Assembly: GCA_021805445.1 (NCBI GenBank) | Contig: JAJZFH010000047.1 | Location: 62,001 to 126,000, forward strand | Source: Pseudomonadota bacterium | Lineage (GTDB): Bacteria > Pseudomonadota > Gammaproteobacteria > Burkholderiales > Ferrovaceae | Direction of reading: 5' to 3' | Length of the DNA: 64,000 nt | Shown here: positions 2,460-48,497 of the stretch, piece by piece | Numbering within the stretch: position 1 is the first letter of the stretch | Layout: each line of letters opens with the position of its first letter | The notes under the pieces: model-generated | Database searches by the model: none | Seen by the model: only the letters and a program-made list of their open reading frames with translations | What the model was told of the DNA's origin: nothing | Program-made: the position numbers and the translations under genes

Positions 2460-4898
2460 TCAATGCGTGATGCCTACAGGGGGGACTACTGCTTCCCCAT
2501 GGGGCTTCAAGGGAGTCGCCGCCGCAGGAATGGGAGGAAGAGGTTCCCCTGTGCCCGCCTCCGGTAAAGGCACCGGTGCGCGTTCCAATGCCAGGGCCAG
2601 AACCTGATCGATCCAACGTACCGGATGTAATTCCAGGCGCCCCTTGATGTTGTCCGGGATTTCCACCAGATCCTTGCAGTTTTCCTGAGGAATCAAAACG
2701 GTCCGAATCCCCCCCCGATGCGCAGCCAGTAATTTTTCCTTGAGACCACCGATGGCCAACACTTCACCGCGCAATGTGATCTCACCGGTCATGGCCACGT
2801 CGGCCCGCACCGGTATGCCTGTGAGTACGGAAACCATGGCGGTGGTAATGGCCGTCCCCGCACTCGGTCCATCCTTGGGGGTCGCTCCCTCGGGTAAGTG
2901 GATATGAATATCGGATTTTTCATAGAAATCGGGAGGAATGCCCAGGCGTGTGGCACGACTGCGCACCACGCTGAGCGCAGCCTGGATGGATTCCTGCATG
3001 ACCTCCCCCAGTTTCCCGGTGGTGGTCATTTTTCCTTTTCCACTCACCCGAGCCGCCTCGATGGTCAATAATTCCCCCCCTACTTCGGTCCATGCCAAAC
3101 CCGTCACCTGTCCCACCTGATTGGTTTTTTCCGCCACGCCAAAGGTATAGGGACGAACGCCCAGATATTTTTCCAGATTGCGTGAAGTCACCGCCACCTT
3201 TCCGGTTTTCTTTGACAGAAGCAGGTACTTGACCACTTTCCGGCAGATCTTCGCGATTTCGCGATCGAGCGCACGCACGCCCGCCTCCCGTGTGTAGTAT
3301 TGGACGATATAGCGCAGGGCACCCTCTGCCACCGAAATTTCATCTTCCTTCAATCCATTGGCCTTCAACTGTTTAGGCAGGAGATATTGACGCGCAATAT
3401 TGATCTTTTCATCCTCCGTATACCCCGACAGTCGAATCACCTCCATACGATCCAGCAAAGGAGATGGAATGTTCAGAGTATTGGCCGTCGCGACGAACAT
3501 CACATCGGACAGGTCATACTCCACCTCCACATAGTGATCGGTAAAGGTATGATTCTGTTCAGGATCCAGAACCTCGAGCAAAGCCGAGGAAGGATCTCCC
3601 CGGTAATCCTGCCCCATCTTGTCCACTTCATCCAGAAGAAACAAAGGATTGCGCACTGCCACCTTGGTCAGACTCTGCAGGATTTTTCCGGGCATGGCTC
3701 CGATATAGGTCCGACGATGTCCGCGGATCTCCGCTTCATCCCGCACCCCTCCCAACGCCATGCGTACAAATTTTCGATTGGTGGCGCGTGCGATGGATTT
3801 TCCCAAAGAAGTTTTTCCGACTCCCGGAGGCCCCACCAAACACAGGATGGGTGCCTTGACCTTATCCACCCGTGCCTGGACGGCCAGATATTCGACGATC
3901 CGTTCCTTGACTTTATCCAACCCGAAATGATCCTGGTCCAATACCTTTTCGCAGTTTTCCAAGTCAGAACTGACCCGGGTTTTCTTTTTCCAGGGCAGAC
4001 CCACCAAGGTGTCGATGTAGTTACGCACCACCGTGGCCTCTGCCGACATGGGCGACATCAAACGCAATTTCTTGAGTTCCGATTCGGCCTTGGACTGAGC
4101 TTCCTTGGACATGTGTGCCGTACGGATCTTTTTTTCCAGGTCCTCGATATCCGCACCATCCTCGTTGTCTCCCAACTCCTTCTGGATGGCCTTGACCTGT
4201 TCGTTGAGGTAGTATTCACGCTGGCTTTTTTCCATCTGGCGTTTGACGCGCCCCCGGATGCGCTTTTCCACCTGCAGGATGTCGATTTCACTTTCCAACA
4301 GTGAAAGCAATTGTTCGATACGCTTACGGACATCGAACAGGGCCAGGATATCCTGTTTTTGTTCCAGTTTCAGGGGAACATGGGTAGCAACCGTATCTGC
4401 CAGTCGTCCCGCCTCTTCGATACTGGAAAAAGAACTCAATACCTCCTGAGGAATCTTCTTGTTCAGTTTGACGAATTGCTCAAACTGTCCCAGCAAGGTA
4501 CGACGCAAGGCTTCCAGTTCCGGATGCTCACCGGAGGATTCCTGGATGGGAGTCGCCACTCCAAGAAAATGGGATTGATTGGGTTCAGTGACCTCACTCA
4601 CCGTCACCCGCTGGACCCCCTCCACCAGAACCTTGACCGTACCATCCGGCAGTTTCAGCAATTGCAGGATCGTGGCAATGCTCCCCACGTCATATAACTC
4701 GTCCACCCCCGGATCATCATTGGAGGCAGATTTCTGTGCCACCAGCAGGATGTTCTTGCCCGCTTCCATGGCCAGTTCCAAAGCGCGAATGGATTTGAGG
4801 CGGCCCACAAAGAGAGGAATGACCATATGGGGAAAAACAACCACATCCCGCAGGGGGAGCAGAGGTAATTGCACGGATTCCTGAGTGACTGTACTCAT
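2460..4898 (-). CDS. lon: ATP-dependent Lon protease
   Basis: Cytoplasmic AAA+ serine protease that degrades misfolded and short-lived regulatory proteins. It has 812 residues (E. coli 784), with the extra length mostly in a Pro/Ala-rich C-terminal tail. Order: N-terminal substrate-binding LON domain (about 10-205), coiled-coil section (205-290), AAA+ domain with Walker A GPPGVGKT at 356-363 and Walker B FLLDEVDK, then the protease domain with the catalytic serine in PKDGPSAG (about residue 680) and the catalytic lysine in [14 protein letters not shown]. It follows clpX, clpP and tig on the same strand but has its own sigma-32-type promoter. The ATG has a GAGG 8 bases upstream. Confidence 0.98.
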
Positions 4899-4905
4899 AA
4901 GAGAT

Positions 4906-4955
4906 AACCTCTGAAAGTTGAACCTAACAACAGATGGGGGGAATCCTCAGAGGTT
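4906..4955. repeat. Inverted repeat flanking the lon promoter
   Basis: A perfect 9-bp inverted repeat, aacctctga (4906-4914) and tcagaggtt (4947-4955), separated by 32 bases. One arm lies in the spacer and edge of the -35 element and the other in the leader just before the lon ribosome-binding site. It could be a pair of operator half-sites or chance. Confidence 0.55.
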
Positions 4956-4960
4956 TCAAG
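4932..4960 (-). promoter_or_regulatory. Heat-shock (sigma-32) type promoter of lon
   Basis: On the minus strand CTTGAAA (4954-4960) is followed after 14 bases by CCCCATCT (4932-4939). This matches the sigma-32 pattern CTTGAAA-N11..16-CCCCATnT almost exactly, and the lon start lies 34 bases downstream. Lon is a classical heat-shock gene, so position and function agree. Confidence 0.85.
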
Positions 4961-4969
4961 AGGGACAGC

Positions 4970-6226
4970 CTAAACCCCCACGACCTTTTGTGTATCGGCA
5001 TAGATCAGCAAGGGAGCGCCATCCGACAGGATGCAATTTTCATCCACCACCACCTTGCTGACATTCTGACGGGTAGGCAATTCAAACATGGTATCCAGGA
5101 GCGCGTGTTCAATGATGGAGCGCAGGCCGCGAGCCCCAGTCTTGCGTTGCAAGGCCTTGCGTGCAATGGCCTGAAGTGCGCTGGGACGAAATTCCAGTTC
5201 CACGTTCTCCATGGAAAACAATTTCTGAAACTGGCGGGTCAGTGCATTCTTGGGTTCCGTCAAAATCTGGATCAAAGCCTCCTCATCCAGTTCCTCCAGG
5301 GTGGCCAGCACCGGCAAGCGTCCCACGAATTCCGGAATCAGGCCGAACTTGATCAGATCTTCCGGTTCCACTTCTGACAATGCCTGGGTCAACCCTCGAT
5401 CGTCCTTTCCCATCACCTCTGCACCAAAACCGATGCCCGACCGATCCGAACGATTTCGAACGACTTTGTCGAGCCCGCCGAAGGCTCCGCCACAGATAAA
5501 CAGAATATTGGTGGTATCCACCTGCACAAATTCCTGATTGGGGTGCTTGCGCCCACCCTGAGGGGGCACGGAAGCCGTAGTCCCCTCGATCAGTTTTAGC
5601 AGGGCCTGTTGCACCCCTTCACCGGAAACATCACGGGTGATGGAGGGATTATCGGACTTGCGTGAAATCTTGTCGATTTCATCGATATACACGATTCCTC
5701 TTTGCGCCTTGTCCACATCGTAGTCGCATTTCTGCAACAACTTCTGGATGATGTTTTCCACATCCTCACCCACATAGCCCGCTTCGGTCAGGGTAGTGGC
5801 ATCAGCGATCACGAAAGGAACATTGAGCAAACGCGCCAGAGTCTGGGCCAGCAAGGTTTTTCCTGAACCCGTCGGGCCGATCAGAAGAATGTTGCTCTTG
5901 GACAACTCGATTTCTTTGTCCTTTCCATGATGGCGCAAGCGTTTGTAGTGGTTGTACACCGCCACCGCCAGGATTTTCTTGGCCCGTTGCTGATGAATCA
6001 CGTACTGGTCCAGTATATCGGCGATTTCCTGAGGGGTAGGCAAATCCGCCTTCACCTGACGCGCATCGGCATCCTGAACTTCCTCACGAATGATGTCATT
6101 GCATAATTCGATGCATTCATCACAAATGAATACCGAAGGACCTGCAATCAACTTGCGCACTTCATGCTGGCTCTTGCCGCAGAAGGAACAATAAAGTAAT
6201 TTTTCGCCGCCGTTTTTATCGCTCAT
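4970..6226 (-). CDS. clpX: ClpX, ATPase subunit of ClpXP protease
   Basis: Unfoldase that feeds tagged substrates to ClpP. At 418 residues it is full length. The N-terminal zinc-binding domain has four cysteines (CSFC...CDEC, residues about 13-40). The AAA+ domain has Walker A GPTGSGKT, Walker [10 protein letters not shown], an RKSDN segment, the pore-loop GYVGED and the ClpP-docking IGF-type loop (SGIGFGAEV). It lies 37 bases after clpP on the same strand, the usual clpP-clpX pair. No separate promoter was recognised, so co-transcription with clpP is likely. Confidence 0.98.
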
Positions 6227-6263
6227 TTCCCTTTACCCGCTCTCCGAATCCCTATCAACTCGT

Positions 6264-6878
6264 TCAAGAACTCGCCATTTCCCCACGTCGACTCAATACC
6301 CGATCCACCAAACCATAGTCAAGTGCTTCCTGCGCATTCATGAAGTTATCACGATCCGTATCCTTTTCCAAGTCCGCTACCTGTTTGCCGGTATGATGCG
6401 CCAATATCTCATTCAAGCGATGACGGAGGTACAGGATTTCCTTGGCCTGGATCTCGATGTCGGAAGCCTGTCCCTGCGCTCCGCCGGAAGGTTGATGGAT
6501 CATGACCCGGGAATTGGGCAACGCATAACGTTTGCCCGGGGCTCCGGCGGCCAGAAGAAAAGCGCCCATGCTGGCCGCAATGCCCATACATGTGGTGCTG
6601 ACACTGGACTTGATGAACTGCATCGTGTCATAAATGGCCAACCCGGCAGAAACCGACCCTCCGGGCGAATTGATATACAGGTGAATATCCTTGTCCGGAT
6701 TTTCAGACTCCAAAAACAACAACTGAGCCACGACGATGTTGGCCACGCCATCATTCACCGGACCCACCAAAAAAATCACCCGTTCCTTCATGAGGCGGGA
6801 AAAGATGTCGAAGGCCCGTTCGCCGCGTCCACTTTGTTCTACTACGGTGGGGACCAACCCCAGCCCTTGAATATCCAT
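6264..6878 (-). CDS. clpP: ClpP, proteolytic subunit
   Basis: Self-compartmentalised serine peptidase forming 14-mers capped by ClpX. The catalytic triad is visible: Ser in [14 protein letters not shown], His in [10 protein letters not shown], Asp in [10 protein letters not shown]. The chosen ATG gives a 204-residue protein starting [15 protein letters not shown]. The in-frame ATG 12 bases upstream (6890) has no ribosome-binding site, whereas GGGGGA sits 4 bases before the chosen start. The gene lies between tig and clpX, the classical tig-clpP-clpX order. Confidence 0.97.
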
Positions 6879-6958
6879 GTATTCCCCCATGTTGATTGGT
6901 TATGACGGGTTTCCACCCCGGATTCGGAGGTTGGACCGCCCGGGACTTAAAAAATTCC

Positions 6959-8263
6959 TCAACCCGCTTGAACTGTTCTCGTCATGTCTTCAAAAGAAGA
7001 CACCACATCCTTGACCGAGACCTGATCGCACACCCAACGCACCACCGCTTCCTCCAGTGCCAGATTTTCCACTTGCTGGCGTTGGGCCGGGTTCTGGGTA
7101 TACCATTGCACCACTTCCTCGGGGCGCTCATAGGCCGACGCCATTTCCTCGATGAGTTCCTGAACCTGTTGCGCACCGGCAGAAATCTCAGCCCGTCCGA
7201 CCAATTCAGCCACGATCAAACCCAACGTCACACGCCGCCGGGCGGAAGCCTCAAACAGGCTATCGGGCATGTCAGGCAGTTGTCTTTCGGGTGTCTGGTC
7301 CTGCATTTCTTCCCGGGTATTCTGACGCATGCGCTGAATTTCGTTATACACCAATACCTGCGGAACAGGAATGGGTGCGACCTGGAGCAGAATTTCCATG
7401 ACCTGTTCCTTGACCAGCGTACGAATCTTCTGACGAACTTCTCGTTCCAGATTCAAACGCAATTCCTGACGCAACTCTGCCACGCCCCCTTCCGTAACCC
7501 CAACGGAACGCAAGAAAGCATCATCCAGTTCAGGGAGGACAGGCGCAGCCACTTCACGCACCCGCGTATGAAAGGACACTGTTTTACCTGCCAGTTCAAC
7601 TGCTGAATAATCGGCGGGAAATTCCAGAGGAAAGGTTTTCTCTTCCCCTGCACTCATCCCCAGCAAGGCCTGCTCAAAGTCGGCCAGAAAACGTCCATTA
7701 CCCAGAACCAGTGATACGTCTTGCCCCTTGCCCCCAGCGAATTCCACCCCCTCCAGAGTCCCGGTAAAATCGATCCGAACCCGATCCTCGTTCTGAGCGG
7801 CCCGTTCCACGGCCTCATACCGAACCCGCTGGCGCCGCAGGACATCGAGGGTACGCTCGATGTCCTCTTCGCTCACCGTGACGACCGGTTTCTCAATGGT
7901 GTATCCAGTCCACTCCCCCACCACGACTTCGGGGTAGACCTCAAAAATGGCTGAAAATTCGAAGGTATCGGCCTGTTCCGTTGGCATCGCCTCAAATCTG
8001 GCGGGACCGGCCACCCTCAATTCCTGAGAACGGACCGCCTCGCCAAAGTGGCCCTGCGCCATCTCGTTCAGTACTTCATCCTGAACCTGTGCGCCATACT
8101 GCTGGACCACCAGACGATAAGGCACTTTACCGGGACGAAACCCTTGCATACGCACCGTCCGTGCCAATTTTTTGAGACGTTGTTCTGCCAATGTACGTAC
8201 AGTAGCCAAGGGTAATGCCAATTGCAGACGACGTTCGAGGGGATGTGTGTGCGGGGTGTCCAT
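6959..8263 (-). CDS. tig: Trigger factor (ribosome-associated chaperone and prolyl isomerase)
   Basis: Chaperone docked at the ribosomal exit tunnel (L23). It has 434 residues (E. coli 432). Order: N-terminal ribosome-binding domain with the signature GFRPGKVP (about residues 41-48), central FKBP-like isomerase domain (about 150-245, EDRVRIDFTGTLEGVEFAGG), and long helical C-terminal arms. The N-terminus (MDTPHTHPLERRLQ) is divergent from E. coli but of the normal length before GFRPGKVP. It leads the tig-clpP-clpX group from its own promoter, which is seen just upstream. Confidence 0.97.
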   Translation of the reverse strand: MDTPHTHPLERRLQLALPLATVRTLAEQRLKKLARTVRMQGFRPGKVPYRLVVQQYGAQVQDEVLNEMAQGHFGEAVRSQELRVAGPARFEAMPTEQADTFEFSAIFEVYPEVVVGEWTGYTIEKPVVTVSEEDIERTLDVLRRQRVRYEAVERAAQNEDRVRIDFTGTLEGVEFAGGKGQDVSLVLGNGRFLADFEQALLGMSAGEEKTFPLEFPADYSAVELAGKTVSFHTRVREVAAPVLPELDDAFLRSVGVTEGGVAELRQELRLNLEREVRQKIRTLVKEQVMEILLQVAPIPVPQVLVYNEIQRMRQNTREEMQDQTPERQLPDMPDSLFEASARRRVTLGLIVAELVGRAEISAGAQQVQELIEEMASAYERPEEVVQWYTQNPAQRQQVENLALEEAVVRWVCDQVSVKDVVSSFEDMTRTVQAG

Positions 8264-41138: not shown

Positions 41139-41507
41139 TCACTGCTTCGGGAGGAATTCGGCTATCGTGCTGGCAAAGGAATTCACATCGATGGGTTTGT
41201 CGATATAGCCGTCAAAGCCGCTGGCCAAGAGCAGTTCGCGTTCTCCCTTCATGGCACTGGCCGTCAATGCGATGATGGGAATGTGCCGCGTCAACTCGTT
41301 GGCCTTGATATGCTTCATCGCATGTTTGCCATCCATCACCGGCATGCGCAGGTCCATGAGAATCAGATCCGGCGGTTCCGATTCTGCGATCTCGATCGCG
41401 TTCCTGCCATCCGAAGCGCCCAGAGTCTCGTGTCCGGCCAGTTCAAGCGCGATGCAGGCCAACTGCAGATTCAGCGCATTGTCATCAACCACCAGAATCC
41501 TGCTCAT
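41139..41507 (-). CDS. Single-domain response regulator (receiver only)
   Basis: 122 residues containing only a CheY/DivK-type receiver. The acidic pair is Asp8/Asp9, the phospho-acceptor Asp52 (LILMDLRMPVMDG), Thr in IIALTASAMKGE and the Lys in GYIDKPID. Its start overlaps the stop of the large hybrid kinase (ATGA), so it is its probable phosphotransfer partner or output. No DNA-binding or enzymatic output domain is present. Last gene of the minus-strand signalling group. Confidence 0.93.
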   Translation of the reverse strand: MSRILVVDDNALNLQLACIALELAGHETLGASDGRNAIEIAESEPPDLILMDLRMPVMDGKHAMKHIKANELTRHIPIIALTASAMKGERELLLASGFDGYIDKPIDVNSFASTIAEFLPKQ

Positions 41508-44500
41508 GATTCCCCCTCATCGGAGCATATGCAACGATCGCCGCCAGATCTCGAGGCAACCGCCACGCGCGCGTTCAGTTGTGTCACCAGACCTTCGGGG
41601 GTGAATGCACCAATACCGAATTGCACACACCCAAACGAGGCGGTAAAGTTTCCGACCTCACCACCCGAAAGGGGAAATTTGTGGATGCGAATGCGCAATC
41701 GCAACTTCTCAGCCACCCGTTCGGCCACAGATTGCGCGGTGCCGGTCAAAATCAGCATGAAGGACGCTTCACTGGAGCGAACCAGTACATCCCCCTCGCG
41801 GGTGACCGCATTCACCAATTCGACGATTTCCTTGAGCGCAGCCACGCCCCAGTGCTGACCATATTTCTTCGCATAGACATCATAGGCATCCATCTGCCAG
41901 CCCACCAGTGAAAAAGTCTGACCGTAACGTTCGGCGCGGTTGCATTCCTGCGCCAGACGAAGTTGCCTGTAACGCAAATTGTAGCAACGCAACGCCCTGT
42001 CCATCAGTCGTGCCTGCACCGGATACAACAATTCCATGGAGCGCAGTTCTCGCAACAAATCGGCGCGACCGGTGGCCCCTTTGGTCAATACCTTTTCCAC
42101 TTCCTGGCCAAGCCGCATGACCTCTTCGCGCGTCAAGTCCTTGGCCGAGAAAATGACGACCGGAATATCGCGGGCCGTGGGATGACGCTTCAATTCCTCC
42201 ACCACCTCAAATCCACTGATGCCCGGCATCATCAAATCCAGTATGATCAGATCCGGATCGTGTTCGATGGCTGCCCGGATGCCATCGCGTCCACTGGACG
42301 CCAGCAGGAGACGATAGCCCTGGCCGCGGAGACATTCCCTGATGTATTCGCGCACACTGACCTCATCATCGATCACCAGCACCGTCATGCCTGGCGCATG
42401 CGGACTGTGACGCCCGTGACGACTGATCAGATTCACCAGATCATTCTTGCTCACCTGCTTGTCCATGGTATCAACGGTACCGAGTGAGAAACTGGGTGAC
42501 TCGGCGTCGCCGCCAAGCAACACGAGCGGAATATGGCGGGTGGCCTTGCGCGAACGCAGCAGGTGCAATTGACGATAAATGTCCACGGGGTCGTCCGGTA
42601 TGCCGACGATGATCAGGAAAGGACATTTTTCTTCCGCCAGAAGTTCGACATGGCTCAGATCGGTCATCTCACCCAGGTATCCTTCTTCCCGCAACAAGGA
42701 GGATACTGCGGCAGCACGAGCCTTGTTGTCATCGACGATCAGAATGACCGGCAACTCCACCAACCCGGGGAGGTCTTCCTCAACCACTTCCATGAGCGCC
42801 CGGGATTCAGCCTGTTCCGCCAGCCCCTCTGTGGGTATCATCATCACCTCGCCTTCAGCCGTCACCATCTGCACCGGGAGCGTAAAGACGAACAGACTGC
42901 CTGTGCCCGGCTTGCTCTCCACCCGGATGGCCCCCCCCTGTATCTCCAGCAAGCGACGCACCAATGTCAGTCCCAGCCCTGTGCCGCCGAACTCGCGCGT
43001 CAATCCGCCCTCACCCTGGACAAATGGCTGGAAAATACGCTCGATATCGGCCGGCTCGATGCCTATACCGCTGTCTCGCACCCAGCCTTCGAGCATGGCA
43101 TGGGTATCGTCGCCCCTGATGGCAAAGCCCACCTCGATGCTCCCCCCATCCGGCGTGAACTTGATGGCATTTCCCATCAGGTTGACCCACACCTGCTGCA
43201 ATTTACCGGCATCGAGATATGCCGTGCGATCTTCTTCAGGCAAGACGAGACTGACTTCCAGTTTCTTCCTGTCCAGCAGCGGCCTGAGATGATTGACCAT
43301 GAATTTGAGGATAGTGCCCGGAATTGCAGGTTCCTGATGGATCTCCAGCATGCCTGCCTCGATCTTGGACAGATCCAGCAGACTGTTGATCAACTCCAGC
43401 AAGCGCTTGCCGCTGACATTGATGTATTCTACATATTCCTTGTGTTTGGCCGGTAATTCCTTCGATTTTACAAGAAGCAGGTCGGAAAAACCGATAATTG
43501 CATTCAAGGGCGTACGCAATTCATGACTGGTGTTGGCCAGGAATTGGTTTTTTGCCTCGCTGGCATGGCGCAACTCGTCATTCATCAATTCCAGTTCGAT
43601 TTCATGGCCTCGCAGCAGGCGGTTGGCGCTATTGAGTTCACTCGTGCGCGCGGCCACACGATTTTCCAGTTCGGCATTGGCTTCCTGCAAGTGCTCGAAC
43701 TGTCGTGCGTTGGACAATGCCACGGCGCAACCCGATGCCAGCATTCGCACTGCCGATTCATCATCATCAGAAAATGGCCCCCCCCCTTTCTTGTCCGTCA
43801 GATACAACGCCCCGATCATCTTGCCGGCAAACTCGATTGGAACACCGAGGAATGTAGTCATGTGCGGATGACCTTCCGGATAACCGATGGATTTCGAATG
43901 GTTGGCAATATTTTCCGCACGTACCACCTGACGGTCATTCCACAGGAGCCCGAGCAAACCCAGTCCCTGTGGCGAATGACCTTTGAGTTTCTCCAGTTGG
44001 ACATGGTCCATCCCCAAGGGAACGAACTGCTTCTCGCCATCCTTCAGGTAGGACAGCATGGCATAACGCGCATCCGTCAATTGCATCGCCAGTTCACCGA
44101 TCTTCCTGAGCACCACCTCGTCGACCAATTCGCGGGACAGGCCGATGATGGCTTCGTAAATGATCGCCTGCTGGATCGCCTTTTGCTGCAGGTGGCTCAC
44201 CAGTTCGTTGAACATGTTCGCGAGACTTCCCAGTTCGTCGGTACGATCCAGCGTCACGCGGTAGGAGTGGTCCCCCTCCAGTTCGATCTTTTTTGCGCCG
44301 GCCTGTAGCAGACCGATGGGCCGGATCACCTCGCGGTTCAACAACCACAACAGCAACACCCCCGTCAACAGGATGACCGCGGCAACCGACCAGAAGATTT
44401 TGCTGCGTTGATCGGCAAAGGCCTGGGTCAAGGCGCTTGTCGGCACGGACAATTCGAGCACGCCGCGCACGGGATTCGCGGGGGTTCCATCATAGCCGTG

Positions 44501-44995
44501 GCATTGTAGGCAAGCATCCTCGATACGGATGGGAAGCAGCAGGGTCAGGCGACCGTCTTCGATGACCCGCGTCTCGGTTCCGGCGGTGGCCGCGATGAAC
44601 GATTTTCTGAGGGACGGTGGCAAGGTTTCCGGTTTGATCTCCCGATCATGGTGTGCAAAGCGTTTCTTGCCCAGCCAATCGTCAACACGATCGATGGTGG
44701 CGTTGTCCACGAAAGCCTCGGTACCGTCGCGGCGGTAGATGCGTACATCATTAAAGTCGGTGGTCTGCCTGACACGCTTCAACCAGTCGTGCGCAATCGG
44801 ACCCTCGCCGGCCAGCATGATGGATTTCAGGCTGGCTTCCAGCGCCAGCGCCGATTGATCGGTGGATCGCTCTGCCTGCTCCATCATGTACTGGCGCTCG
44901 CTGTGGTCGAGCCAGGTCAGTCCGCCGACCAGCAGCAGGGTCAGGACTGCGCCCAGAATGGCGCTCAACCGCAGGCCCAGCCGTGATCTAAACAT
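41504..44995 (-). CDS. Hybrid histidine kinase with periplasmic c-heme sensor, GAF, two receivers and degenerate GGDEF
   Basis: 1163 residues. In order: membrane segment 8-27; periplasmic domain of about 170 residues resembling the DUF3365/Tll0287 heme sensor, with a c-heme site CLQCH (162-166); second membrane segment 200-219; HAMP (220-275); GAF (280-435); coiled coil; HisKA with His491 in NTSHELRTPLN; ATPase (NAIKFTPDGG, DSGIGI, GGTGLGL); receiver 1 (750-860) in which the phospho-Asp position reads FLIIVGIP, so it lacks the acceptor; receiver 2 (872-985) with Asp920; and a C-terminal GGDEF-like domain (990-1155) whose motif is SSEAS instead of GGDEF. The ATG overlaps the HTH-receiver stop. 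It likely senses redox state or a heme ligand in the periplasm. Confidence 0.88.
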   Translation of the reverse strand: MFRSRLGLRLSAILGAVLTLLLVGGLTWLDHSERQYMMEQAERSTDQSALALEASLKSIMLAGEGPIAHDWLKRVRQTTDFNDVRIYRRDGTEAFVDNATIDRVDDWLGKKRFAHHDREIKPETLPPSLRKSFIAATAGTETRVIEDGRLTLLLPIRIEDACLQCHGYDGTPANPVRGVLELSVPTSALTQAFADQRSKIFWSVAAVILLTGVLLLWLLNREVIRPIGLLQAGAKKIELEGDHSYRVTLDRTDELGSLANMFNELVSHLQQKAIQQAIIYEAIIGLSRELVDEVVLRKIGELAMQLTDARYAMLSYLKDGEKQFVPLGMDHVQLEKLKGHSPQGLGLLGLLWNDRQVVRAENIANHSKSIGYPEGHPHMTTFLGVPIEFAGKMIGALYLTDKKGGGPFSDDDESAVRMLASGCAVALSNARQFEHLQEANAELENRVAARTSELNSANRLLRGHEIELELMNDELRHASEAKNQFLANTSHELRTPLNAIIGFSDLLLVKSKELPAKHKEYVEYINVSGKRLLELINSLLDLSKIEAGMLEIHQEPAIPGTILKFMVNHLRPLLDRKKLEVSLVLPEEDRTAYLDAGKLQQVWVNLMGNAIKFTPDGGSIEVGFAIRGDDTHAMLEGWVRDSGIGIEPADIERIFQPFVQGEGGLTREFGGTGLGLTLVRRLLEIQGGAIRVESKPGTGSLFVFTLPVQMVTAEGEVMMIPTEGLAEQAESRALMEVVEEDLPGLVELPVILIVDDNKARAAAVSSLLREEGYLGEMTDLSHVELLAEEKCPFLIIVGIPDDPVDIYRQLHLLRSRKATRHIPLVLLGGDAESPSFSLGTVDTMDKQVSKNDLVNLISRHGRHSPHAPGMTVLVIDDEVSVREYIRECLRGQGYRLLLASSGRDGIRAAIEHDPDLIILDLMMPGISGFEVVEELKRHPTARDIPVVIFSAKDLTREEVMRLGQEVEKVLTKGATGRADLLRELRSMELLYPVQARLMDRALRCYNLRYRQLRLAQECNRAERYGQTFSLVGWQMDAYDVYAKKYGQHWGVAALKEIVELVNAVTREGDVLVRSSEASFMLILTGTAQSVAERVAEKLRLRIRIHKFPLSGGEVGNFTASFGCVQFGIGAFTPEGLVTQLNARVAVASRSGGDRCICSDEGES

Positions 44996-45608
44996 ACCCG
45001 CCCCCCCCCTCATTGCTGCGGTACTCCTGCGGTTCGTCAGGGCAGACGACCGGCGAAGCCAGGCACGCGCCGACGATGTCCAGAAGCCGGCGTGCTTCCA
45101 CGGGTTTGGGCAATAGGGCGGCCACCCCGGCGGATCGCGCAGCCTGCACGACATCAGACCGATCAAAGAGCGCAGTGACCACAACGATGGCCATGTCATC
45201 GAGATCGGGGTCAGCCCTGATGCGGTTCAGCACCTCCAAACCGTCGATGCCGGGCATGAGAATGTCCAGCACCAACATATCCGGTCGCCACGCGCCAATC
45301 CGCATCAACCCCGTGTAGCCATCGTGGATGCATTGGATATTCAAAGGGAAGTCGGCCTGTTCCAGTACGGCCCTGAGCAATGTGCACTCGGAAGGGTCGT
45401 CATCAATGATGAGCACGCGCGCCGGTGTCGTCTTGCGCCTGCCCGGGATCGACAGGCCTCTCGCCCGCATGAAGGCGTAAAGATCGTCTTTCGAAATGCG
45501 CCAGTGACCGCCAGGGGTGCAAGCACCCCGCAAGTCACCCTTGTTTATCCAGCGTTTGACCGTATTCAGACCTACGCCGAGCATGCGCGCTGCCTCACCA
45601 GTTGTCAT
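44988..45608 (-). CDS. Response regulator with N-terminal excisionase/MerR-type helix-turn-helix
   Basis: 206 residues. An N-terminal DNA-binding domain of the HTH_17 (excisionase) kind (TTGEAARMLGVGLNTVKRWINKG...HWRISKDDLYAFM, residues 2-47) joins a receiver (64-185) with acidic Asp69-71, phospho-Asp115 in MLVLDILMPGIDG, and Lys in LLPKPVE. This is the reverse of the common receiver-then-HTH order. It overlaps the kinase gene downstream by 8 bases, so the kinase is its likely partner. Expressed from the divergent spacer shared with the chemoreceptor gene. Confidence 0.9.
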   Translation of the reverse strand: MTTGEAARMLGVGLNTVKRWINKGDLRGACTPGGHWRISKDDLYAFMRARGLSIPGRRKTTPARVLIIDDDPSECTLLRAVLEQADFPLNIQCIHDGYTGLMRIGAWRPDMLVLDILMPGIDGLEVLNRIRADPDLDDMAIVVVTALFDRSDVVQAARSAGVAALLPKPVEARRLLDIVGACLASPVVCPDEPQEYRSNEGGGGYV

Positions 45609-45649
45609 ATACCCGACCCATGTTCATAAAAATTTGTCAAAGTTTACAC

Positions 45650-45664
45650 TCAAGCGCCTCTTGA
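45650..45664. promoter_or_regulatory. Palindrome TCAAG-N5-CTTGA in the divergent signalling spacer
   Basis: TCAAG (45650-45654) and CTTGA (45660-45664) form a 5-5-5 palindrome in the 136-base spacer between the HTH-receiver gene and the chemoreceptor gene. It could be an operator for the HTH regulator; the site is short and could be chance. No confident promoter hexamers were found in this spacer. Confidence 0.35.
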
Positions 45665-45744
45665 ACACAGTATAACGAATAATATGGACATTTTGGACAG
45701 ATCATGGGTAGAATGCCCCCACTCGATCGGGATGTTCGAGCAAC

Positions 45745-47388
45745 ATGAACAAAACGTCCAACGGTTTCCTAAAACGAGATCCCATGAAAAAACACGCCAT
45801 TGCATTCAAAATCCAACTGGCTGTTCAATCCATCCTGATGTTGGTCGGCATTGCCGTCGCGGTATCTTTCTACAGTGTCGAAAAGGGTTCAATGCGTCTG
45901 GGCGAGCAAAGCAGGATCGAGGTATTGGCCGATGGCGTGATCAACGGAGCCAACATGCTCATGCTCAACGGGATCATCAGCGATGTGGAGCAGAGGAAAC
46001 TCTTCATCCGGAAGATGGGTTCGAGCGAGAACGTCAAATCCCTGCGGCTGATCAGAAACAAACTGGTACAAGCGCAGTTCGGCACGGGATTGCCGGAAGA
46101 GCAACCCGTCGGAGACGAAGAAAGACTGTCCCTGGATGACGGAAAGACGCGCTTCAGGGTCAACGGCAATCTGTTGCACGGGATCGTTCCTTACACCGAG
46201 AGCCACAATTTCAGGGGGACCGACTGCCTGATGTGCCACGTCGTACCGGTTGGCTATCACAATGGCGCTTCGGTCATCGACCTGGACATCTCGGCCGACC
46301 AGACCAAACTGGAACGGCTGGCCTGGACCTCCGTTGCCGTCGTGGTCATCGTTCAGGGCCTCCTATGGCTGCTGATCCGCTTCATTCTCACCGTGCTCGT
46401 GTCGGCGCCCGCACACAGAATGCAGACAACGATCCAGGAAATCGCAAAGACCGGCGATTTCACGATGCGCGTCGATGTGCATTCCGAAGACGAGATCGGG
46501 CAGACAAGTCGTGCATTCAACGATCTCATGGCGAACCTGCAGCAATCATTCCGTCAGGTGCATGAAGGCATCGAGAAACTGGCCGAATCGTCTCATGCAC
46601 TTTCGGTGTCGTCGCATCAGGTTGCGACCGGCTCATCGCATCAAAGCGAAGCCACTGCCGCGATGGCGGCAACCGTGGAGCAGATCGTGGTCAGCATCAG
46701 CCACATTTCCGAAGGGAGCCAGGAGGCAATGAGGTTTTCACAGCACTCCGGTGAACTTTCCGAGCAGGGGAGCAAGATCATTCACCGCGCTTCGGAAGAA
46801 ATGAAACGGATTGCCGACGTTGCGAAGGCGACTGCACAGTCCATAGAAAACCTCGGAAAGCAGTCGACCAAGATTTCATCCATCGTCGAGGTCATCAAGG
46901 AAATCGCGGACCAGACCAACCTGCTCGCCCTGAACGCCGCCATCGAAGCGGCGCGAGCCGGAGAGTTGGGAAGAGGTTTTGCCGTAGTGGCGGACGAGGT
47001 TCGTAAACTGTCTGAAAGAACCAGTTTGGCGACTGCCGAAGTGGCACAGATGATCGACACCATGCAGCAGGCTTCCAAAATATCCGTAGACAGCATGGCC
47101 ACCATGGTCAATCAGGTTCACGAAGGCGTGAAATTGGCCGATCAAGCAGGCGAAGCCATCAATCAGATCAAGACGGGGTCCGGGCAGACGGCCGACACGG
47201 TCGGTGAGATATCCACTGCCTTGAACGAGCAAACCGCCGCAAGCAACGACATCGCCACACATATCGAAAGGATCTCGCAATTGACGGAGAGAAACAGTAC
47301 CGCAGCAGGAACCGCCGCAGACGCCGCAGATTACCTCGAACGACTGGCCGATGATATGCGCACCACAATCAACCGGTTCAAAATTTGA
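45745..47388 (+). CDS. Methyl-accepting chemotaxis protein with periplasmic c-heme (CXXCH) sensor
   Basis: 547 residues (534 if the ATG at 45784 is used). Membrane segment 26-43, periplasmic sensor about 44-190 with the c-heme motif CLMCH (161-165), second membrane segment 193-216, HAMP (to about 270), then the cytoplasmic signalling domain with the hairpin [20 protein letters not shown] and [18 protein letters not shown]. No C-terminal pentapeptide for CheR was seen. Heme-bearing chemoreceptors are known as oxygen, redox or gas sensors. It is followed at overlap distance by an HD-GYP regulator and lies divergent from the c-heme hybrid kinase. Confidence 0.9.
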
Positions 47389-47402
47389 ACCCGACAGAGA
47401 CA

Positions 47403-48497
47403 ATGGGGATGACATCCTTTGTGGGAACCTTGGCGGACGATACCCGGAGCCGGGTACTCGTCGTGGATGACGATGCGCAGACCCGTCATCTGCTCGAGGT
47501 CCTGCTTCAAAGCGAAGGGCTCGAAACGGTTCTGGCTGAAAATGGGCAGCAGGCCCTGGAAATCGTAAAGACCTTCAAACCCCACCTGATCCTTCTGGAT
47601 CTGATGATGCCTGGCATGACGGGATTCGAGGTGGTCAAAAAACTCAAAAGGGATTCGGATACCCGATCGATCCCGATCATCCTGGTCAGCGCTTTGGAAG
47701 ACAGGGCTTCGCGTTTGCAAGGACTGAAGGCTGGGGCCGAGGAATTCCTCACCAAACCCATCGACCACACAGATCTGCAAATTCGTGTACGCAATCTGCT
47801 GCAACTGAAGAAATTCAACGATTTTTTGGAAAGCCACAACCAGATACTGGAAACCAAGGTGCAGGAGCGCACCAATGCGTTACGTGAATCTTTCGTCGAA
47901 TCGATATTCACCCTTATCCGCGCAGCGGAATTTCGCGATGACGAAACTGGCGAGCATGTAAAGAGGATCAGCCATTACAGCCAAGAACTGGCAAAACAAA
48001 TGGGACTGGACAAGGAATTCTGTGACCTCATTTTTTACGCCAGCCCCATGCACGATATCGGAAAAATCGGCATTCCCGACCATATCCTGCTGAAGACCGG
48101 GAGTTTGGAGCTCGCCGAATGGACGATCATGAAAAGTCATACCACCATTGGAGCCAAGATTCTGGCGAATAATTCCTCCCCTTTTCTGAAGATGGGGTAC
48201 GATATCGCCTTGGGTCACCACGAACGCTGGGATGGCAGCGGTTACCCCGACGGCCTCAGGGGAGAGGCAATTCCCTTGCCGGCACGGATCATGCAACTCG
48301 CGGATGTCTACGATGCCCTGCGCAGCAAACGTCCCTACAAGCCTGCGTTCGAGCATGAAAAGACCATTGACATCATTCTTAACGGGGATGGTCGCACCCT
48401 GAACTCTCATTTCGACCCGGCAGTATTGGAGGCATTCCATCGCCGGGCAGACACCATGGAAGAAATATTTGCCGGCAGCGGTGAACATGCACTGTAA
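47403..48497 (+). CDS. Response regulator with HD-GYP cyclic-di-GMP phosphodiesterase domain
   Basis: 364 residues. Receiver at the N-terminus with phospho-Asp66 (LILLDLMMPGMTG) and Lys in FLTKPID; a short coiled coil (about 135-170); then HD-GYP with HD at 217-218 (MHDIGKIGIPDHILLKTG) and HHERWDGSGYP (272-282) followed by RIMQLADVYDALRSKRPYK. All metal ligands expected of an active phosphodiesterase appear present. A TTG at 47385 overlapping the chemoreceptor stop is an alternative start. It probably lowers cyclic-di-GMP in response to a kinase not identified by sequence, perhaps the neighbouring c-heme kinase. Confidence 0.92.
   Translation: MGMTSFVGTLADDTRSRVLVVDDDAQTRHLLEVLLQSEGLETVLAENGQQALEIVKTFKPHLILLDLMMPGMTGFEVVKKLKRDSDTRSIPIILVSALEDRASRLQGLKAGAEEFLTKPIDHTDLQIRVRNLLQLKKFNDFLESHNQILETKVQERTNALRESFVESIFTLIRAAEFRDDETGEHVKRISHYSQELAKQMGLDKEFCDLIFYASPMHDIGKIGIPDHILLKTGSLELAEWTIMKSHTTIGAKILANNSSPFLKMGYDIALGHHERWDGSGYPDGLRGEAIPLPARIMQLADVYDALRSKRPYKPAFEHEKTIDIILNGDGRTLNSHFDPAVLEAFHRRADTMEEIFAGSGEHAL

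Follow-up and report, generated by a model that had tools for sequence, protein, structure and literature searches.

A hybrid histidine kinase from a relative of Ferrovum with a pseudo-receiver and a degenerate GGDEF domain that keeps its I-site residues

The kinase and its operon

The window, a 64,000-nucleotide stretch of DNA from a host close to Ferrovum, carries on its reverse strand a hybrid histidine kinase gene set among genes for receiver proteins, a chemoreceptor and an HD-GYP protein. The features are listed below by window position, strand and basis of assignment.

41139..41507 (-): stand-alone receiver, 122 aa, a probable phosphotransfer partner (Pfam)
41504..44995 (-): hybrid histidine kinase, 1163 aa (translation, Pfam, motif positions)
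41531..42040 (-): degenerate GGDEF domain, residues 986-1155 (Pfam, predicted fold, sequence match to PleD)
41705..41707 (-): K1097, at the place of R390 in the PleD I-site (K in all 26 sequences)
41759..41773 (-): S1075-E-A-S-F1079 replacing GGDEF, dead active site (alignment to PleD GGEEF)
41789..41800 (-): R1066-E-G-D1069, matching R359xxD362 of the PleD I-site (R and D the same in all 26 sequences)
42041..42388 (-): receiver 2, intact, residues 870-985 (Pfam, alignment)
42410..42754 (-): receiver 1, a pseudo-receiver, residues 748-862 (sequence profiles, alignment)
44498..44512 (-): CLQCH, c-type heme binding motif, residues 162-166 (motif scan)
44988..45608 (-): HTH_17 (excisionase/MerR-like) with an intact receiver, a probable output regulator (Pfam)
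45745..47388 (+): divergent methyl-accepting chemotaxis protein with a periplasmic CLMCH heme motif (Pfam, motif)
47385..48497 (+): c-di-GMP phosphodiesterase of receiver-HD-GYP architecture, motifs HDIGK and HHERWDGSGYP (Pfam, motifs)

The kinase runs in the order periplasmic CxxCH sensor, HAMP, GAF, HisKA (His491), HATPase, pseudo-receiver, receiver and degenerate GGDEF. Pfam places the HAMP domain at residues 218-271, GAF at 294-427, HisKA at 481-548 and HATPase at 595-709, and in the C-terminal half a receiver at 872-974 and GGDEF at 999-1151. By motif position its conserved boxes are intact (SHELRTP at 490, NLMGNAIKF at 605, DSGIGI at 641 and GGTGLGL at 670), and the H-, N- and G-boxes, together with a true receiver having its D, S/T and K, predict a functional hybrid histidine kinase. 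The NCBIfam BarA model aligns with residues 436-972, from kinase to receiver, far below its cut-off; BarA ends in an Hpt domain, whereas the window kinase ends in the degenerate GGDEF and has no Hpt by Pfam.

The CLQCH motif at 162 lies between predicted transmembrane windows 4-31 and 197-224, a layout predictive of a periplasmic sensor to which c-type heme would be attached. The Geobacter chemotaxis heme sensors GSU0582 and GSU0935 are likewise membrane signalling proteins with a single c-type heme motif in the periplasm (PMC3460858), and the likeness is one of motif and layout, the kinase sensor matching the Pfam family Mcp40H-20_sensor at E 0.009, below the cut-off. Ferrovum and f219, a second family of Burkholderiales, have close homologues of the kinase, and others occur in another class, probably the Zetaproteobacteria. 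The CxxCH motif is kept in those orthologues having the sensor part, the sensor being present in eleven homologues from the other class, in the Ferrovum proteins and in L005, and absent from two f219 proteins (L007 and L008).

The HTH_17-receiver gene shares 8 nt with the start of the kinase gene and the stand-alone receiver gene shares 4 nt with its end, and the order HTH-receiver, kinase, receiver is kept across classes in many homologues, the operon genes of the other class being recognised by motif and start sequence rather than by Pfam. An extra stand-alone receiver, absent in the window, directly precedes the kinase in ten loci (L090, L092, L093, L096-L099 and L101-L103). The divergent chemotaxis protein gene is a neighbour of the kinase in most Ferrovum and f219 loci, and outside these two groups neither it nor the receiver-HD-GYP gene was seen there. 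Both it and the kinase have CxxCH between two membrane helices. Two CxxCH proteins lying side by side suggests paired redox or gas sensing.

The two receivers

In receiver 1 the acceptor Asp position is occupied by Gly798 (codon 42602-42604), unvarying in 26 of 26 aligned modules, which bears out the original prediction of a first receiver without its phospho-acceptor. The Asp920 predicted for receiver 2 is present and is kept in the same 26 modules, and the remaining functional residues of that receiver (D876, D877, S950 and K972) are in place. Assignment of receiver 1 rests on sequence profiles, since the AlphaFold models are poor there (pLDDT 64 for receiver 1 modelled by itself, and a 424-residue model weak over the receivers with a mean pLDDT of 55) and Foldseek with the receiver-1-only model gave no significant match. 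By sequence the domain gives weak Response_reg matches, short of the gathering score, in nine of nine orthologues (E 0.0003-0.001), and among solved structures its profile picks out response regulators at E 2e-6, the Gly lying opposite the acceptor Asp.

In ShkA of Caulobacter crescentus c-di-GMP lifts autoinhibition via a pseudo-receiver ahead of the true receiver (PMC7010744). The window kinase shares this order, a kinase core being followed by a receiver without acceptor Asp that comes after the CA domain and before a true receiver. ShkA itself lacks both a GGDEF domain and a transmembrane heme sensor, and its control by c-di-GMP is established for kinase activity. It could be, then, that the pseudo-receiver is the site for c-di-GMP or another ligand as in ShkA and that the GGDEF part is structural only. 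The shared placement, the invariant Gly798 and a very low dN/dS for receiver 1 (0.03-0.13 against orthologues) all fit such a role. However the linker between receivers 1 and 2, which reads LISRHGRHSPHAPGMT, does not contain the DDR motif of ShkA, ShkA was not among the matches listed in sequence searches of solved structures, and the receiver-1 model is too poor to place the ShkA ligand residues, so that a ligand site of this kind seems improbable here.

A GGDEF fold with a dead active site

The C-terminal domain passes the Pfam family PF00990 with 55-60 bits against a gathering cut-off of 23.8. AlphaFold gives it the secondary-structure order of a GGDEF domain, with pLDDT of about 70-90 over the GGDEF-like part, and Foldseek with this model matches GGDEF structures, DosC at E 1.5e-10 with a TM score of 0.81 of the target and 2.7 Å. 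The GGDEF fold proposed originally is thus the one on which structure prediction, Foldseek and Pfam agree. Receiver 2 and the GGDEF-like tail together resemble PleD, WspR and DgcR in both sequence and fold, but these are active cyclases whereas the window domain is without any catalytic residue.

Residues were mapped onto PleD from a gapless HMMER alignment. The GGDEF signature is lost as had been claimed, but the SSEAS first read in its place is one residue off, SEASF being what aligns with the GGEEF of PleD. Beyond the signature, the Mg ligand D327 of PleD has become Q1034, the guanine ligands N335 and D344 have become A1042 and V1051, and the phosphate ligands K442 and R446 have become S1148 and G1152. 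These PleD functions are in part what we take to be general knowledge of that protein. The catalytic letters at all of these positions and at GGEEF are lost in 26 of 26 modules, and most of the positions vary; only 22 of the 170 domain columns are invariant across the 26. For the other part the PleD functions were assigned from PMC3509222. With its signature and its Mg and GTP residues gone, the domain is predicted not to be an active diguanylate cyclase, in line with the earlier view that it makes no c-di-GMP, every active-site residue tested having been lost.

The original prediction had also allowed that such a domain might bind GTP, and FimX, with its degenerate GDSIF motif, does respond to GTP (PMC8846402). 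A residual enzyme or GTP sensor of the FimX type is nonetheless very improbable, as the equivalents of D327, N335, D344, K442 and R446 that would contact Mg, guanine and phosphate are all replaced, most of them by varying letters, and FimX-like sensing was rejected on this loss.

The domain is the weakest match among 23 GGDEF domains in the genome and the only one without [DE][DE]F. The other 22 keep their active-site residues, one as EGDEF and one as GGDDF, and so c-di-GMP can be made in the host. Also encoded in it are 17 EAL domains and three proteins of HD-GYP type. A 411-residue protein of the same genome (L081, 823-2058) has two HD stretches, of which the C-terminal one is HD-GYP.

A sequencing error or a decaying gene can be given next to no weight. 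Twenty-five relatives show the same or equivalent changes, and purifying selection acts on both degenerate domains, dN/dS of the GGDEF-like domain being 0.09-0.23 against orthologues, so a sequencing artefact is ruled out, and with it frameshift or gene decay. Nothing in favour of error or decay came to light for the window gene, though its homologue L090 reads in two frames. There (4685-8194) a 310-residue heme-sensor frame is separate from the kinase frame, which may be a frameshift, a real split or an assembly error.

The retained I-site and the case for a c-di-GMP receptor

The original account did not mention the I-site triad. The residues R1066, D1069 and K1097, equivalent to R359, D362 and R390 of PleD, are fixed in 26 modules that span 43-100% identity, whereas the residues at the dead active site differ widely, and the codon of the I-site Arg has undergone synonymous changes only. 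A secondary Arg, R313 of PleD, corresponds to R1020 and is kept in Ferrovum but not throughout the family. A degenerate A-site with an intact RxxD is the sequence pattern of the dead-GGDEF c-di-GMP receptors SgmT and PopA, and the invariant R, D and K would make the c-di-GMP binding once suggested for this domain possible. Some caution is needed, as R..D...R is common to most GGDEF domains and its retention alone is permissive evidence. The equivalents of R359 and D362 occur in 20 and 19 of 22 sister GGDEF domains, and as they rank with the best conserved positions of GGDEF domains in general they could here be kept for folding. That the I-site stays invariant in 26 sequences while the surrounding active site has drifted adds weight to the receptor reading.

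A scaffold role is open to GGDEF domains that lack an A-site, and the domain may instead be a protein-docking or dimerisation module that binds no nucleotide and pairs, for example, with an active cyclase or with partner receivers. The genome holds 22 potential GGDEF partners, and R1073, outside the I-site, is as invariant as the I-site, as are other non-I-site columns. Such a module does not predict an I-site R, D and K fixed in 26 of 26 beside a drifting active-site loop, and we regard this account as rather unlikely.

The closest counterpart is SgmT of Myxococcus xanthus, a GAF-kinase-receiver protein ending in a dead GGDEF with an intact I-site, whose isolated GGDEF domain binds c-di-GMP via RxxD without competition from GTP, and whose dead GGDEF has no measured effect on kinase activity and acts in localisation only (PMC3509222). 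Compared on architecture only, the two share GAF, kinase core, receiver, a C-terminal GGDEF with dead A-site and RxxD, and (probably, in the window) a partner response regulator that binds DNA and is a protein of its own. SgmT lies in the cytoplasm and has only one receiver, and its signature is GGGVF; the window kinase, unlike it, has a periplasmic heme sensor, a HAMP domain and an added pseudo-receiver, has lost the active site far more completely, and lies in a cluster with genes for probable regulators.

Since the binding site is kept unchanged in relatives and enzyme activity is lost, the kinase probably senses c-di-GMP as well as its periplasmic signal. The reading that we favour, with some confidence, is of a kinase under the joint control of a heme sensor in the periplasm and of c-di-GMP bound to the dead GGDEF, so combining features of SgmT and ShkA; its footing is the domain order, the active-site loss, the loss of the receiver-1 Asp, I-site invariance and gene order, all of them read from sequence. 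The periplasmic c-type heme domain would sense redox state or a gas, and its signal would pass via HAMP and GAF to the kinase core at His491. c-di-GMP would occupy the retained R1066, D1069 and K1097, and this may alter the packing of the pseudo-receiver and receiver 2 on the kinase, or kinase clustering. Phosphoryl groups would then go to receiver 2, to the HTH-receiver transcription factor and to the stand-alone receiver, which are presumed to be co-transcribed and specific partners. The ligand could activate, inhibit or localise the kinase. A dead enzyme domain would seem here to have been kept for its allosteric site.

Compatible with this dual gating is the feedback suggested originally from the HD-GYP neighbour, whereby the kinase would phosphorylate the adjacent receiver-HD-GYP protein and then sense the resulting c-di-GMP. 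That protein has an intact receiver and intact HD-GYP motifs, and its divergent gene is a neighbour of the kinase gene at the Ferrovum and f219 loci. However a motif scan flagged no HD-GYP gene beside the kinase at 16 other-class loci, which do keep the HTH-receiver and the lone receiver; as a conserved partner the HD-GYP protein was rejected on this ground, and such a loop is doubtful. In L005 (1149-2336) a fragment of the chemoreceptor signalling domain is in frame with the receiver-HD-GYP, which would fit a collapse of the receptor gene into the HD-GYP gene.

Probable spread among iron oxidisers

A scan of contigs reached close relatives only, and it was a profile search across the phylum that reached the other class, where full-length modules occur in 19 of 78 genomes. 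A search for the same architecture, as originally proposed, therefore recovers the module beyond Ferrovum, in f219 and in another class. Over the aligned part L007 and L005 share 78-87% identity with the window kinase, far above the 47-48% identity of PheT between the window genome and f219 genomes. A MutS near the kinase on the L008 contig is 71-94% identical to those of three other f219 genomes and 58-59% to those of Ferrovum, so this contig, its MutS being f219-like, is not mis-binned. The kinase identity and the sound L008 contig make horizontal transfer of the kinase neighbourhood (window 41139-48497) between Ferrovum and f219 likely. The L005 contig (87%) could itself be mis-binned, and L087, at 70% over the module, is on a contig of only 8.4 kb. 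In the tree the Ferrovum proteins fall within the diversity of the other class, but a separate clade is not rejected by an AU test (p 0.14), and transfer may have run in either direction.

The module points to a signalling unit common to acid-mine Ferrovum and to what seem to be marine iron oxidisers. Tentatively, it may be a dedicated operon that has spread horizontally among unrelated iron oxidisers (Ferrovum and, by inference, Zetaproteobacteria), in which a periplasmic redox or gas heme signal and c-di-GMP are joined in one kinase, with the pseudo-receiver and the dead GGDEF as ligand-gated switches, and which would govern attachment or the expression of genes that depend on Fe(II).

The tree sets two groups, A and B, apart with full support. 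Group B (L106-L115, all from the other class) consists of related kinases with two intact receivers, a similar linker (YPxxAxLxD), and a half-degenerate R[IVT]DEF domain in which RxSD is intact, and may be an earlier stage of the same active-site decay. Two single-contig genomes of the other class carry the group B paralogue only.
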